Of a DNA stretch of 40,403 nucleotides, positions 8,063-32,149 are shown piece after piece. Every line of letters starts with the position of its first letter. Within the stretch, counting starts at the first letter, position 1. This DNA is from Planctomyces sp. (GTDB taxonomy: Bacteria; Planctomycetota; Planctomycetia; Planctomycetales; Planctomycetaceae), in NCBI GenBank assembly GCA_005798445.1, contig SYJG01000425.1, forward strand, positions 1 through 40,403. The letters run 5' to 3'. The position numbers and the translations under genes were made by a program. The notes under the pieces were generated by a model, which worked only from the letters and a program-made list of their open reading frames with translations, searched no databases and was not told where the DNA came from.

Positions 8063-8280
8063 TTGCGATCTCTCCTGGGGAACGAGCTTGTGGTCGATCG
8101 CTCAGTGACGAGCGATTGCCAGGACCGAATCCGTCAGGGATCTGCAAATTGCCCCGGCGATCAAGAACCGCTGATCGAGGGGGCGAAGCGACACGACTCG
8201 CGACCCGATTTCAGATTTTTTCCAAACTTTTTGAGTCGGTCGGTTGCGATGCAGCCCATTGGCTTAACGACGGTTTCCGG

Positions 8281-8337
8281 ACGTGGAGCAAGTTTTCAAC
8301 GTGCTTGTCACGGGCACGTTGAAAACGTACCCCACGT
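8281..8337. repeat. Dispersed palindrome, family A (copy 1)
   Basis: Arms 8281-8304 and 8314-8337 are complementary at 21 of 24 positions, including a perfect 13-bp inner stem (8292-8304 with 8314-8326, loop of 9). Each arm contains ACGTGG followed by GTTTTCAAC. The same sequence family occurs at 17152-17179. It lies within the 477-base gap between the beta-helix gene (start 8062, minus) and the small ORF at 8540 (plus); the rest of that gap shows no gene, only a weak 7-bp hairpin at 8097-8116. Confidence 0.8.
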
Positions 8338-8539
8338 CACTGCGGCTTCGCCGCCTGATTTCCTGCCGTTCGCCTTTGGAGCGGCTTGCCCGCCAGTTCG
8401 CTCGGCGAGTTCCAGGACGGTGGAGACCCAGAAAGAGAATTCCGAAAAATCTCTGTCGCGGCGACCGGGTGTTTGGCGGTCTGTGGTTGGGCCGAAATGG
8501 CCAACACGTACTTCACCCACAAGCAACAAAGGAAACCCA

Positions 8540-18467: not shown

Positions 18468-19462
18468 GTGACGTACCCCTCCGAATTGTGTCGGAAAGGA
18501 ACAGATTGCAAATTGCAAATTGCAATTTGCAATTTGCGAATTGAACCGCAGGGTCGTGGTGGCTGCGTTCGTGTCTCCTCAATTTGCAATTTGCAATGCC
18601 TCACCCGAAACGATGTCTTCGCTCCGCTATGAAACGTGGTCAACGAAAGCACCTGCAACCCAATCAAGATTGCCAGCAAAAATCCGCCCGCCCACAGCGT
18701 CAGTGCCGCGACCTGCTTGCCAGTCGAGCGGCGTGTCGTCAACAGCCAGACGAACAGCGACATCATCGCCACCCAGACAACTCCGTGGCCAAGCACGATC
18801 GGGTCGGAGAAGGACAGCACGGCTCCGACCTCTTGCGACGTTAAGCCCAACGCGACGCCGCTGCCGAGCCCCAGTGTCAGTACCGGCACACTGACCACCA
18901 CCGCCCACCAGTTCCAACGGGCCAGCTGAGCGAGACTCGGCAACAAGACTCCCGGCTGCGAAGCGTGATGCTGCTTCAATCGACGGTGCTGCACGACGTA
19001 CATCACGCTCAGCATGACTCCGACGACGACTCCCGTGATCCCGACCGCCAGTAGTGAGGCGTGCAGCATCACCAGTCCGCGATTTCCGGCGATCAGAGGA
19101 TTGGGCTGCTTGCTGACTAGGTACGACGCGCCGACGAACAACAAGACGATTGGCAGCAAAAACAGCCCGACCGCCAACTCGCGGTCCACGGTCGTCAGGA
19201 ACAGGTACAACAGCACGACAATCCACGCGAGCACCAGCAACCAGTCGTGCGGAGAACTGAGCAGCGGCGGCAAGTTTTCTTGCCGGCCACGGATCAGCAG
19301 ATATCCCGTCTGAGCCGCAAAGCCCGCGAGGCCAAAGACCAACCCGATCCAGCGAGCGACCGGCCAGCGCTTCAGCAACCGCGCGGCATCCAGCCCCAAC
19401 GCCACCACATAGCTGGCGAGGAAACAGAAGACGCTCACTTTGGCGAAGAATTCGATCGGCAT
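18464..19462 (-). CDS. CcsA/HemX-family cytochrome c assembly protein with repeat-derived C-terminal tail
   Basis: 332 residues, multi-pass membrane protein (about eight hydrophobic segments). The Trp-rich block QLARWNWWAVVVSVPV and His residues in VMLHASLLAVG and VLGHGVVWVAMM fit the CcsA/HemX/CcmC haem-handling family. The membrane core ends near residue 280 (LQVLSLTTFHSG). The last 45 residues (CKLQIEE, then KLQIAICNLQ) are translated from the AATTTGC repeat at 18508-18594 and are probably not ancestral. The stop TGA overlaps the hemA ATG. The start lies only 3 bases after the PIN gene stop and has no clear ribosome-binding site, so translational coupling to the PIN gene is likely. A role in haem delivery for cytochrome c assembly or in control of HemA level is inferred from family and context. 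Confidence 0.85.
   Translation of the reverse strand: MPIEFFAKVSVFCFLASYVVALGLDAARLLKRWPVARWIGLVFGLAGFAAQTGYLLIRGRQENLPPLLSSPHDWLLVLAWIVVLLYLFLTTVDRELAVGLFLLPIVLLFVGASYLVSKQPNPLIAGNRGLVMLHASLLAVGITGVVVGVMLSVMYVVQHRRLKQHHASQPGVLLPSLAQLARWNWWAVVVSVPVLTLGLGSGVALGLTSQEVGAVLSFSDPIVLGHGVVWVAMMSLFVWLLTTRRSTGKQVAALTLWAGGFLLAILIGLQVLSLTTFHSGAKTSFRVRHCKLQIEETRTQPPRPCGSIRKLQIAICNLQSVPFRHNSEGYVT
18508..18594. repeat. AATTTGC / GCAAATT repeat element inside the ccsA-like gene
   Basis: A perfect palindrome of two 7-bp units per arm (GCAAATT twice at 18508-18521, AATTTGC twice at 18524-18537, GC between), followed 43 bases later by two more AATTTGC units (18581-18594). It is much more AT-rich than its surroundings. 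It encodes the C-terminal tail of the CcsA-like protein. Confidence 0.9.
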
Positions 19463-21646: not shown

Positions 21647-21680
21647 CGTAGTGTCTCCAAGTGTGAGGCTTTGTTTCTCG

Positions 21681-21774
21681 GCCGATGGCAGTGAGCCGAA
21701 AGCCGATCGCCGTTATCACAAATTCAAATGGGTTGTGATAACGGCTATCGGCCATCGGCCAACGGCTTTCGGCC
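21681..21774. repeat. GGCCGATGGC-type palindromic element, overlapping the 3' end of the oxidase gene
   Basis: Inner arms 21703-21720 and 21734-21751 are complementary at 17 of 18 positions, with a 13-base spacer. The outer parts carry permuted GCCGATGGC and GCCGAAAGCC modules on both sides. It fills most of the gap between the ceramidase-like gene and the oxidase gene and supplies the last codons and the stop of the latter. Confidence 0.85.
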
Positions 21775-22971
21775 GGACAGTCGGGCAAGGCTGAGGAAGT
21801 CGATTGGTAGCTCGGTGCGGCCTGTTGTTGCCAAGTCGGCGAAGACGCTTCCGAGAACCGAGGTGAACTTGAATCCGTGGCCGGAGAAACCGCAACCGAT
21901 CACGACGTTGGGAAACTCTGGATGCCGATCGACGACGAAGTGCCGGTCAGGGGTAACGGTGTAGAGGCAGGTCGAATGCCGTGCGGGCTGTGAACGAACT
22001 GCTGGCAGGCAACTTTGTAAGAAATTCGCGATCGGCTGGACGTCAGAGTCATGCAGTTGGCGATCGACGAGCAACGGATCAGCGACGATATCGCCGCCGG
22101 AGTGTTGAGCAACTTTGAGAACTCGTCCGTCGAGCGAAGGGAAGCCGTAGAAGGTGGATGCCATTTTGTCAGTAGCCCGGACGCCTACGTCCGGGCGCTC
22201 GGACGTAGGCGTCCGAGCTACGAATTCAGGCGGCATCTCGAAATAGAACGTCGGCATCGACGCATCGAGGTTGTATGCCGGTGATGTCGTCTCGAACCAA
22301 AAGATCGGTTTGCGGAGCACCTGCAACGGCAGCTTGAGGTCGGCGAGCACCGACGCCGCCCACGAACCGGCGGTGATGACCAGCGACGCAGCCACGAACT
22401 CGCGCGTTGCCGTGCGCACGCGAACCTCGCGGCCGGTGCTCGACCAGGAGACGACCGGTTCATCGAACAACAGCGTCGCTCCGTGAGCAGTTGCGCGATC
22501 CAGATGCGTGCGCACGCAGTCTTCGACTTTCAAGAATCCGGCGTCCGGTTCAAAGACGACATCAAACTCATCCGGGACGCGAAAGCCGGACCAGCGCTGT
22601 GTCGCTGCGAACGCAGACAGATTTTCGATGGTCAGTCCGTGCTGACTCGCGGAGAGCCGTGCGCCAGAGATCGCTTCGCTGTCGGGCAGGCCGGCGAGCA
22701 GCAGGCCGCACTTCCAGAACAACTGCTGTTGCGATTCGGCTTCGAGATCGGCCCACAAGTCGTAGGCTTTCAGCAGCAGTGGGACGTAGTCGGGGTGCTC
22801 GAAGTACGCCTTGCGGATGATCCTCGTCTCTCCGTGCGAGCTGCCTCGATCGTGAGCCGGACCAAAGCGGTCGAGGCCGAGCACTCGCAGGCCGCGCCGA
22901 GCGAGGTGATACGCCGCTCCGCTGCCGAAGCCGCCGGTTCCCAACACGATGACATCGAACACTTCCGGCAT
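21745..22971 (-). CDS. FAD-dependent amine oxidase of the sarcosine / N-methyltryptophan oxidase family, with in-frame palindromic insert
   Basis: 408 residues. The FAD-binding start DVIVLGTGGFGSGAAYHLAR, the HDRGSSHGETRIIR block and the C-terminal VIGCGFSGHGFKFT match monomeric sarcosine oxidase and N-methyltryptophan oxidase. Cys335 in STCLYTVTPDRHFVVD aligns with the cysteine that binds FAD covalently. These enzymes oxidise N-methyl amino acids to the demethylated amine, formaldehyde and H2O2; the substrate here is unknown. Residues 251-267 (ARTPTSERPDVGVRATD) come from a palindrome inserted just before the STFYGFPSL strand. Residues 400-408 come from a second repeat. Both inserts keep the frame and no catalytic motif is lost. 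The start has only a weak ribosome-binding site. Confidence 0.9.
   Translation of the reverse strand: MPEVFDVIVLGTGGFGSGAAYHLARRGLRVLGLDRFGPAHDRGSSHGETRIIRKAYFEHPDYVPLLLKAYDLWADLEAESQQQLFWKCGLLLAGLPDSEAISGARLSASQHGLTIENLSAFAATQRWSGFRVPDEFDVVFEPDAGFLKVEDCVRTHLDRATAHGATLLFDEPVVSWSSTGREVRVRTATREFVAASLVITAGSWAASVLADLKLPLQVLRKPIFWFETTSPAYNLDASMPTFYFEMPPEFVARTPTSERPDVGVRATDKMASTFYGFPSLDGRVLKVAQHSGGDIVADPLLVDRQLHDSDVQPIANFLQSCLPAVRSQPARHSTCLYTVTPDRHFVVDRHPEFPNVVIGCGFSGHGFKFTSVLGSVFADLATTGRTELPIDFLSLARLSGRKPLADGR
22172..22221. repeat. Near-perfect palindrome inserted in frame in the oxidase gene
   Basis: Arms 22172-22192 and 22201-22221 are complementary at 20 of 21 positions (the exception is a possible G-T pair), with an 8-base loop. 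Each arm carries the core GGACGCCTACGTCC or its complement. It lies entirely inside the minus-strand coding sequence. Confidence 0.93.
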
Positions 22972-23029
22972 GTGGCACCGTTTGTCAGATCGAAGGGGCG
23001 GTCTTAGTCTGTCTCACTTGAAGGAGAAT

Positions 23030-23083
23030 GTAGACGAGTCACTCCGTGACTCGAACCTTCCGGTCACGGAGTGACCGGTCTAC
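23030..23083. repeat. GTCACTCCGTGAC-type double palindrome
   Basis: Each half is itself a dyad (CGAGTCAC-TCC-GTGACTCG, and CCGGTCAC-GGA-GTGACCGG). The two halves 23030-23052 and 23061-23083 are complementary at 19 of 23 positions, ending GTAGAC and GTCTAC. It lies in the 156-base gap between the divergent oxidase and MFS genes. Confidence 0.85.
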
Positions 23084-23127
23084 GTTAGAGGCTAAAGCGT
23101 CACGCTCAACACCGACAAGGCAACGAC

Positions 23128-25508: not shown

Positions 25509-25626
25509 CCTGGAGTGCTGCGGCCCGACGCAGCCCTCCATTCACTTGAAAGAGCGACTCGATCAATCTGTTGTGTTTCAGCTGCGCAAATGAATGGAGG
25601 GCGGTGTCGAGCCACCGCACTCCAGG
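25509..25626. repeat. TGGAGTGC...CCTCCATTCA palindromic element with long spacer
   Basis: Arms 25509-25544 and 25591-25626 are complementary at 31 of 36 positions, with a 46-base spacer. The element fills nearly the whole gap between the prepilin peptidase stop (TAA at 25627-25629, directly abutting) and the isomerase start (25500). Confidence 0.9.
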
Positions 25627-30163: not shown

Positions 30164-32149
30164 CTACCCCAGTCTTCCGAACTGGCGTTCGAGTTCGTTC
30201 TCCGTCAGCACCAGCGCCGTCGGGCGGCCGTGCGGGCAGTGGTGGGCGTCGTCGATCAAGTGGCGTTGGGCGAGCAGGCTGTCGATTTCCTCCGGCGAGA
30301 GCCGCTGTCCGGCCTTGATCGCGGCTTTGCAGGACATCATGTGCAGCAGCGAATCGAGCAGGTCGCGGCGATCAGGCGCTTTCTCCGGCTGGTCGAGTTG
30401 CTCGGCCAGATCGCGGACCAGTTGTGGGAGGTTGGCCTTTTTGAGCATCACCGGATAGCGATCGACCAGCACTGTCTGGCGGCCGAATTCTTGAACGCCC
30501 AGGCCGAGCTGATTCAGCACGTCGGCGTACTCCAACAGCAACGCGGTTTCCTTCGGTGTGAGTTCGACCGTCTCTGGGACGAGCATCCGCTGCGATTCGA
30601 CGGCGTTGTCGAGCACGCGCGGACGCAGGTACTCGTAAACAATCCGCTCGTGCAGTGCGTGCTGGTCGATCAGCGTCAGCCCCTCGTCTGTTTCGACGAC
30701 GATGTAGGTGTCGCGAATCTGCATGGCCCGCAATTCTCCGTGATTCACGCGGCTCGCGTGGCGATTCACCACATCGCTGTTCGGCAACTCAGCCGGAGCC
30801 GAAGTGGTCGCGAATGATGCCAAGTCCGCCGCCGGTTTCGTGATCTGAGAATTGAGATTGGAGATTTCAGATTCGTCCGACACCGTCGGCGATTCAGCCA
30901 CGCCGACACGCGGCAACTCGGCTGGTGGTCGAGGCACGTTGTTCCACAACGAGTTGTTCGACGACGAACCACTCGAGGACGAACCCATCGGCGGCGACCA
31001 AGACTGCAGCTCGACGCCGCGCGGTCGCGGGCCGGCTCCGGCTGTCGCGAAACCGCCGTTCGACGGAAGTCGCATCGTTGATTCAAAGTTCAAACTCAAA
31101 AACTTCGTCCGCAGCATCGACAACAATTGTCGGAACAGAGCTTGGCCATCGGCGAAGCGAACCTCGGATTTGGTCGGGTGGACGTTCACGTCCACAATCT
31201 CGGCGGGAACTTCCAGAAACAAGAACGAAATCGGCTGACGGCCGATCATCAGCAAGCCGCGATACGCTTCGGTCAGTGCGTGTTGCAGCGAGCGGTCTTG
31301 AATCCAGCGGCCGTTGAGAAACAGATGCTGGCTCTTGCGAGTGCTCTTGCTGACCGACGGATGGCCGACGTAGCCCCACATTCGCACCCCCTGCGATTCC
31401 GATTCGACCGGGATCAGGTTGTCCGCCAGTTCGTTGCCGAACAACAAGCGGATGCGGTCGAGCAACTGAGTCGTGCCGGGCAACTCGAAGACGACTTTGC
31501 CGTTGTGCCGCAGCACGAGATGCAGTCGCGGTTGTGCGAGGGCAATGCGAGTGAAGTGCTCGGTGATGTGCGCGAACTCGGTGCCGATGGACTTCAAAAA
31601 CTTCCGGCGGACCGGCGTGTTGGCGAAGAGTTGCCGCACTTCAATCTGCGTTCCGACCGGACAGCCGCAGGGCTGCGGTGGCGCGATCTGTCCGAATTCG
31701 GAGAGGATTTCGTGGCCCGACAAGCTAGCCCGACGCGCGAGCGAGGGGTCTTCCGCTGCAACCCCTCGCTCGTGCGTCGGGCTAGAGTCGGTCGCCGCGT
31801 CGGGCGTGCGGCTGCGAATACGAAGCCGGCTGACCTCAGCGATCGACGCCAGCGCCTCGCCGCGAAAGCCCATCGTTTGCACTCGAAAGAGGTCCTCGGC
31901 CGAGGCGATCTTGCTCGTCGCGTGAGCGGTCACGGCCAGCAGCAAGTCGTCGGGATGGATCCCTTCGCCGTCATCGACGATGCGAATCAGTTCCCCGCCG
32001 CCAGCTTCGAGATCGACTTCGATCCGTGTCGCCAGCGCGTCGAGGCTGTTTTCGAGCAGCTCCTGGACGACGTTGGCGGGACGCTCAATGACCTCGCCGG
32101 CGGCGATTTTGTTGACGACCGAAACGTCGAGTGCATGAATCCGAGACAT
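30164..32149 (-). CDS. mutL: DNA mismatch repair protein MutL with in-frame palindromic insert
   Basis: 661 residues. The GHKL ATPase motifs are present: IAAGEVIERPANVVQELLEN (15-34), RIVDDGEGI and TMGFRGEALASI. The dimerisation domain carries the endonuclease motif DQHALHERIVYE (from Asp495), plus SCKAAIKAG and CPHGRP, so this is the nicking type found in bacteria without MutH. Residues 122-142 (SSPTHERGVAAEDPSLARRA) are encoded by a palindrome inserted between RLRIRSRT and the VGTQIEVRQLF strand, inside the ATPase domain. The flexible linker near 430 contains another repeat-like segment (SEISNLNSQI). The start is the first ATG of a standard MSRIHAL sequence. First gene of the minus-strand run. 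Confidence 0.96.
   Translation of the reverse strand: MSRIHALDVSVVNKIAAGEVIERPANVVQELLENSLDALATRIEVDLEAGGGELIRIVDDGEGIHPDDLLLAVTAHATSKIASAEDLFRVQTMGFRGEALASIAEVSRLRIRSRTPDAATDSSPTHERGVAAEDPSLARRASLSGHEILSEFGQIAPPQPCGCPVGTQIEVRQLFANTPVRRKFLKSIGTEFAHITEHFTRIALAQPRLHLVLRHNGKVVFELPGTTQLLDRIRLLFGNELADNLIPVESESQGVRMWGYVGHPSVSKSTRKSQHLFLNGRWIQDRSLQHALTEAYRGLLMIGRQPISFLFLEVPAEIVDVNVHPTKSEVRFADGQALFRQLLSMLRTKFLSLNFESTMRLPSNGGFATAGAGPRPRGVELQSWSPPMGSSSSGSSSNNSLWNNVPRPPAELPRVGVAESPTVSDESEISNLNSQITKPAADLASFATTSAPAELPNSDVVNRHASRVNHGELRAMQIRDTYIVVETDEGLTLIDQHALHERIVYEYLRPRVLDNAVESQRMLVPETVELTPKETALLLEYADVLNQLGLGVQEFGRQTVLVDRYPVMLKKANLPQLVRDLAEQLDQPEKAPDRRDLLDSLLHMMSCKAAIKAGQRLSPEEIDSLLAQRHLIDDAHHCPHGRPTALVLTENELERQFGRLG
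30841..30873. repeat. Possible repeat-derived segment in the mutL linker
   Basis: An AT-richer stretch with TCTGAGAATTGAGATTGGAG, translated on the minus strand as SEISNLNSQI in the disordered linker of MutL. It has only weak dyad symmetry and no second copy in the window. Suggested because similar segments recur in planctomycete proteins, from memory. Confidence 0.35.
31725..31785. repeat. Near-perfect palindrome inserted in frame in mutL
   Basis: Arms 31725-31749 and 31761-31785 are complementary at 24 of 25 positions (the exception is a G-T pair), with an 11-base spacer. Both outer ends are CTAGCCCGACGC or its complement. It lies entirely inside the coding sequence. Confidence 0.95.

Follow-up and report, generated by a model that had tools for sequence, protein, structure and literature searches.

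Whether a long palindrome that is read through as part of an enzyme belongs to that enzyme or is a guest in its gene, and how it came to lie there, is the question raised by positions 22172-22221 of the window, the whole stretch of 40,403 nucleotides of Planctomyces sp. DNA analysed here. Earlier reports listed palindromes inside genes and did not decide whether elements of different origin gather at hotspots there (PMC3767692). A genus with several close genomes, in which palindrome families are many and more than one RAYT occurs, makes the hotspot question directly testable. The best explanation as a whole, to which we assign a probability of roughly 0.88, is that a dispersed GTAG-type REPIN was inserted in frame in a permissive turn of an oxidase gene and that such slots were later refilled. 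The preliminary description of this locus recognised neither the REP dimer, nor how far its family extends, nor the reuse of slots by other palindromes.

The host gene

The gene encodes an oxidase that matches Pfam DAO (1e-44), NCBIfam PRK11259 (N-methyl-L-tryptophan oxidase; 6e-125, 417 bits versus a cut-off of 257) and sarcosine oxidases of the PDB (2.5e-86). Beside the profile match, the cysteine that carries the covalent flavin is present: Cys335 lies in the aligned CLYTVTPD motif and is retained, as had been stated. The palindrome encodes residues 251-267, immediately before STFYGFPS, and in solved relatives the strands that flank it are joined by a turn of just a few residues. Both the assignment of residues and the short loop of relatives before STFYGFPSL had been proposed in the preliminary description, and the sequence, the orthologue alignment and the solved structures bear them out. 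Residues 251-267 and similar modules should be read with a warning, as they are not conserved enzyme features. The features concerned are as follows.

21745-22971, minus strand: host gene, monomeric sarcosine / N-methyl-L-tryptophan oxidase-like FAD enzyme, 408 amino acids (Pfam, NCBIfam and PDB matches)
22172-22221, no strand: whole REP dimer (REPIN, better described so than as a simple palindrome), 50-nt inverted repeat, in frame in the oxidase gene
22172-22196, plus strand: first REP, with GTAG tag 22172-22175, stem 22175-22183 / 22188-22196 and loop CCTA 22184-22187 (from sequence and helix 1 covariation)
22197-22221, minus strand: second REP, in inverse orientation, with stem 22197-22205 / 22210-22218, ending in CTAC 22218-22221 (from sequence and helix 2 covariation)

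In three congeners the reported oxidase match contains in-frame stops (one TGA in G011, L028; one TGA and one TAG in G004, L029; one TGA in G005, L030), which may reflect a pseudogene, an error or an overrun of the match.

Architecture of the palindrome

The 50 nucleotides read GTAGCCCGGACGCCTACGTCCGGGC + GCTCGGACGTAGGCGTCCGAGCTAC. The preliminary description gave their coordinates exactly and understated their symmetry, as the 21-bp arms with a loop of 8 are actually arms of 25+25 nt with no loop, 23 of 25 positions being paired (92% complementary). Each half is also a perfect 9-bp hairpin of its own, with a 4-nt loop, beside GTAG. Its sequence makes the palindrome more aptly a REPIN (REP dimer), built of two GTAG-type REPs of 25 nt in inverted order.

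As a single strand, the 64 nt around the element have folding energies of -28.2 kcal/mol (DNA) and -47.8 kcal/mol (RNA), with z-scores of -8.8 and -9.9 against dinucleotide shuffles, none of 200 of which folded as well. Among 33 copies of the family, covariation was found in the two small hairpins (score 0.234 versus 0.090 in shuffled alignments; 4 pairs, 49 double-change cells), whereas the single long stem showed none above the shuffled level (0.063 versus 0.071). Thus the conserved unit is the hairpin of a single REP, and one long hairpin as the selected structure is ruled out. The unit has the short stem-loop with GTAG at its foot that marks GTAG-type REPs, with covarying positions in its stem. 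The inverse pair is what is dispersed, plus-minus pairs being found at nearly all loci with a spacing of 0 to ~20 nt, and two forms coexist, one spacer-free of 50 nt and one with 4-20 nt between the REPs. The base before the REPs is preferentially C, often in TTC or TCC.

Spread of the family and its reading frame

The preliminary description had suggested a genome-wide search for the palindrome core and a count of genic copies and of their frames. In the genome of the window (G000), DNA search found about thirty loci of the family and a covariance model ~46 (90 strand hits), with 22172-22221 as the top match of model R2 within this genome. The catalogue of the family rests on model searches of genomes. 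All 12 genus members were matched, with one locus in G001, ~5 in G008 and at least 75 in G006 and G010, the counts for G006, G010 and G002 being lower bounds. Outside the genus, matches were found in 3 of 58 other sampled genera of the host's taxonomic family, and among the named-genome matches listed all were labelled planctomycete-type MAGs, a number of them filed as, for example, Candidatus Kuenenia. In the genomes covered, the family is specific to this genus of planctomycetes and to a few relatives.

Many copies are intergenic, and at least nine confirmed copies in G000 lie in coding DNA, mostly in the 50-nt form. Besides the oxidase, at least eight further genes of this genome with orthologue support hold the family in frame, most of them with clear Pfam matches (PSD1/PSCyt2, SpoU methylase, hydantoinase B, MnmE, a Cys/Met PLP enzyme, DUF4175, HEAT/cytochrome c and asparagine synthase). 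Frame 0 of the element (GTA GCN CGG ACG) and frame 1 are open, and frame 2 is closed by TAG. Frame 0, read as VxRTPTSxxPDVGVRxT, a 17-residue module that recurs in otherwise unrelated proteins, is used by 8 of the 9 G000 genes, oxidase included, and by 11 of 12 genes when three congener genes are added (P ~0.003 if the two open frames are equally likely; binomial, our own calculation).

Insertion into the oxidase gene

We aligned the G000 oxidase with orthologues from 11 congeners, 12 genus members in all. Five (G000, G002, G006, G010 and G007) carry the element at the same position and seven do not: G003, G005, G011, G008 and G001 have a short loop, and G004 and G009 hold instead of the REPIN a remnant of another dispersed palindrome (GGGGCACGTTTCCAACGTGCC). 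The intervening DNA measures 85 nt in the carriers and 43, 40, 34, 28 or 25 nt in the rest, lengths that are identical modulo 3, and the reading frame is kept in all 12. This comparison shows that the palindrome was inserted in frame, with a predicted gain of 17 amino acids, as had been claimed. The preliminary description would have taken the same 17 residues in palindrome-free orthologues as a sign of normal coding sequence, and they are absent there. We saw no target-site duplication and, within any one species, no pair of an empty and a filled site. The gene trees of the oxidase and of mutL conflict, so that the order of gain and loss is unreadable from them; in the former, G004, which lacks the element, falls among the carriers.

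A further palindrome of the window, TAGCCCGACGC..GCGAGCGAGGGG at 31725-31785, lies in mutL (30164-32149, minus strand) at about residues 122-142 and is unrelated in sequence to the oxidase element. It is likewise an in-frame insert, present in G000, G005 and G003, and the other congeners lack it, most of them with a short site. The earlier view that at least two unrelated palindrome families have entered coding DNA in frame therefore holds and is an underestimate.

Slots shared by unrelated palindromes

At 44 orthologous site-genome pairs from four congeners, genic and intergenic, we found the family at 30, an unrelated palindrome at 9 and none by the score used at 5; palindromes occurred in 4 of 176 flank tiles taken as control. 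Across congeners, the eight further genes gave 85 sites, of which 47 held the family, 14 another palindrome and 24 none. Another palindrome was present at 14 of 36 REPIN-free sites versus 6 of 142 matched coding control windows (P 3e-7), and with a stricter score at 9 of 36 versus 2 of 142 (P 9e-6). Across ten species, at least five types of palindrome occupy the hydantoinase-B slot, all in frame and mostly beginning directly after a TTC codon, with REPIN subtypes in five species and four different unrelated palindromes in G004, G007, G009 and G010. The MnmE slot carries a CTT-type REPIN in G000 and G002, its variants in G003, G004, G009 and G011, exactly the 50-nt sequence of the oxidase gene in G006 and G010, and a half-and-half chimera in G007. 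Furthermore, other palindromes (TCCGCC..GGCGGA) are nested inside REPINs at L070 and, in G006, at the sites orthologous to L057 and L003. Since the other palindromes that share slots also occur elsewhere, they are dispersed families in their own right. The aligned sequences show the same in-gene slots in use by different palindromes, and these spots look like reusable landing sites.

Such reuse might need no special mechanism. If many families enter genes at random and few loops tolerate 15-40 extra residues, the survivors would coincide, and we see the odds on this account as even. The window alone has two in-gene palindromes in 40 kb, which extrapolates to a few hundred per genome, and with such numbers about 1000 tolerant sites would yield the observed reuse of 25-39%; moreover, no second palindrome type was found at the mutL slot in nine other congeners, which fits random entry. 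Tolerant loops in limited number may thus be enough. However, several unrelated palindromes begin directly after the same TTC codon of the hydantoinase-B gene, and independent insertion predicts neither the replacement of subtypes at the MnmE slot nor the chimera in G007.

Active replacement, by which existing hairpins attract or template new ones and occupied slots are rewritten in place, is possible, and we would hold it only tentatively, as a rather unlikely account. It could proceed through a HuH transposase acting on single-stranded hairpins or through hairpin breakage and repair from another copy. The oxidase sequence and the chimera at the MnmE slot, the palindromes nested inside REPINs and the excess at REPIN-free sites over control windows all speak for it, and it would also explain the near-identical oxidase copy in five species. 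Against it, DNA and covariance searches of G000 found no second copy identical to the oxidase element that could serve as donor, no intermediates were observed, and filtering by permissive sites may suffice. That palindromes of different families actively displace each other at fixed positions within genes, the existing hairpin directing the next insertion or conversion, seems to us a shade less probable again. If it were true, genes would carry exchangeable cassettes of 15-40 residues, their sequence dictated by the palindrome family active in the species. The filling of slots by unrelated palindromes suggests one way in which repeats provide proteins with new segments.

Conservation of the oxidase element

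On a tree of the five carrier species the oxidase flanks accumulated 0.35 changes per site, and their changes at codon positions 1, 2 and 3 (84, 53 and 274) are biased to the third position, so the flanks are under strong purifying selection. The element changed once in 50 nt where 17.5 changes were expected from the flanks (Poisson P 5e-7), with none of its 16 third codon positions changed versus ~11 expected, and no 50-nt window of the flanks had one change or fewer. In 30 other orthologous pairs, the hairpin arms diverged less than their flanks (median 6.9% versus 15%; Wilcoxon P 0.017), and arm divergence was bimodal, with either 0-3 or 5-20 differences in 44 positions. Gene conversion from an identical G000 copy as the source of the conserved element was rejected, the DNA and covariance searches of that genome having found no such copy.

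These figures could be taken to mean that the element is no neutral passenger and is kept by selection on DNA or RNA structure, through protein binding or mRNA folding. We consider this unlikely, and somewhat more so than active replacement: the bimodal arm divergence means that many sites change subtype, several congeners do without the element in the oxidase, and recent refilling gives the same pattern. The conservation of the oxidase element reflects either constrained sequence or recent refills, which the data do not separate. That the stretch is ordinary coding sequence, palindromic by chance, is suggested by its open frame in a gene under purifying selection and is next to incredible given the same family at many unrelated loci, shuffle z-scores of about -9 and its absence both from the orthologues of seven congeners and from the solved structures of the family; the orthologues without the element led us to reject it.

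Putative mobiliser and route of insertion

According to the preferred reading, insertion of a dispersed REPIN with later refilling, one copy would have entered the permissive turn region of the oxidase gene, probably at the protein surface. It would have survived because two of its three frames are stop-free and the insertion adds a net length divisible by three, and it would be read through as VARTPTSERPDVGVRAT (predicted translation). A RAYT/TnpA-REP HuH transposase may move the hairpins in single-stranded DNA form, and permissive slots would in the course of time take up other REPIN subtypes and unrelated palindromes.

RAYT-like genes are many in the genus, and several are flanked by other GTAG REPs. 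Only one adjoins the present family, a 3' fragment in G008 that is cut by the contig end and has its stop codon against a REPIN. Since G008 has only ~5 loci of the family, chance adjacency in this single case is unlikely (~6e-4, our own estimate). In G000 and the high-copy genomes, no RAYT-like locus examined is flanked by the REP of the oxidase element. We infer that a RAYT mobilised the family. GTAG hairpins from other families flank the RAYT-like genes at L015, L012, L117, L118 and L152, which form ready RAYT-REP pairs.

Relation to known repeats

GTAG-tagged REP dimers, with several families per genome, are known from Planctomycetes and are abundant in Opitutus terrae (PVC), and those inside ORFs encode 20-30 amino acids, often in repair genes (Di Nocera 2013, PMC3733652). 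The oxidase element shares with them the tag, the short stem-loop, the inverted dimer and the intragenic copies, and differs in its stem sequence and host genus, both new. The oxidase REPIN is thus a new family of a kind whose GTAG REPs, dimers and copies in ORFs were already known. Beyond that set lie the comparative evidence of insertion, the conservation across species at the DNA level and the unrelated palindromes in one in-gene slot. REPINs are described as lying mostly outside genes and as vertically linked to a single RAYT (Bertels and Rainey 2011, PMC3116915; 2021, PMC8049555). The present family resembles them as a miniature mobile unit of two inverted REPs that persists in lineages, but many of its copies lie in genes and a cognate RAYT was seen only in G008.

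The Rickettsia palindromic elements RPE-4, RPE-6 and RPE-7 are in-frame palindromes in protein genes that orthologues have in common at matching loci, and the R. japonica study concluded on a common origin of its RPE types (PMC3767692). In contrast, the palindromes that share slots here are unrelated in sequence and form separate dispersed families. The oxidase element inserts in frame into protein genes as an RPE does; however, RPEs are CGTC-tagged Rickettsia sequences, and it is GTAG-tagged and planctomycete. It works like an RPE and is not one. At the 'dimorph' loci of E. coli, short segments swap at a fixed position, many of them intragenic and frame-preserving, with some palindromic units (Touzain et al. 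2010, PMC2884548). These exchanges are within a species and mostly non-palindromic, whereas here palindrome stands for palindrome between congeneric species. Unrelated palindromes exchanging at fixed in-gene slots are the less expected part of our findings and go beyond the reports found in the open-access literature.

Further palindromes of the window and the genus

Another GTAG-type palindrome (GTAGACGAGTCACTCCGTGACTCG..) lies just upstream of the oxidase gene at 23027-23086, and in G007 the same family occupies site L004. Inverted repeats of differing sequence were found at four more places, 21679-21775, 25509-25626, 18502-18597 and 8280-8338, and palindrome families seem to be unusually numerous in the genus. 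In the distant congener G001, hairpin-like inserts of 132-147 nt (e.g. GCAAGCTTCCAGCTTGC) are present at the hydantoinase-B (L398) and DUF4175 (L418) slots.
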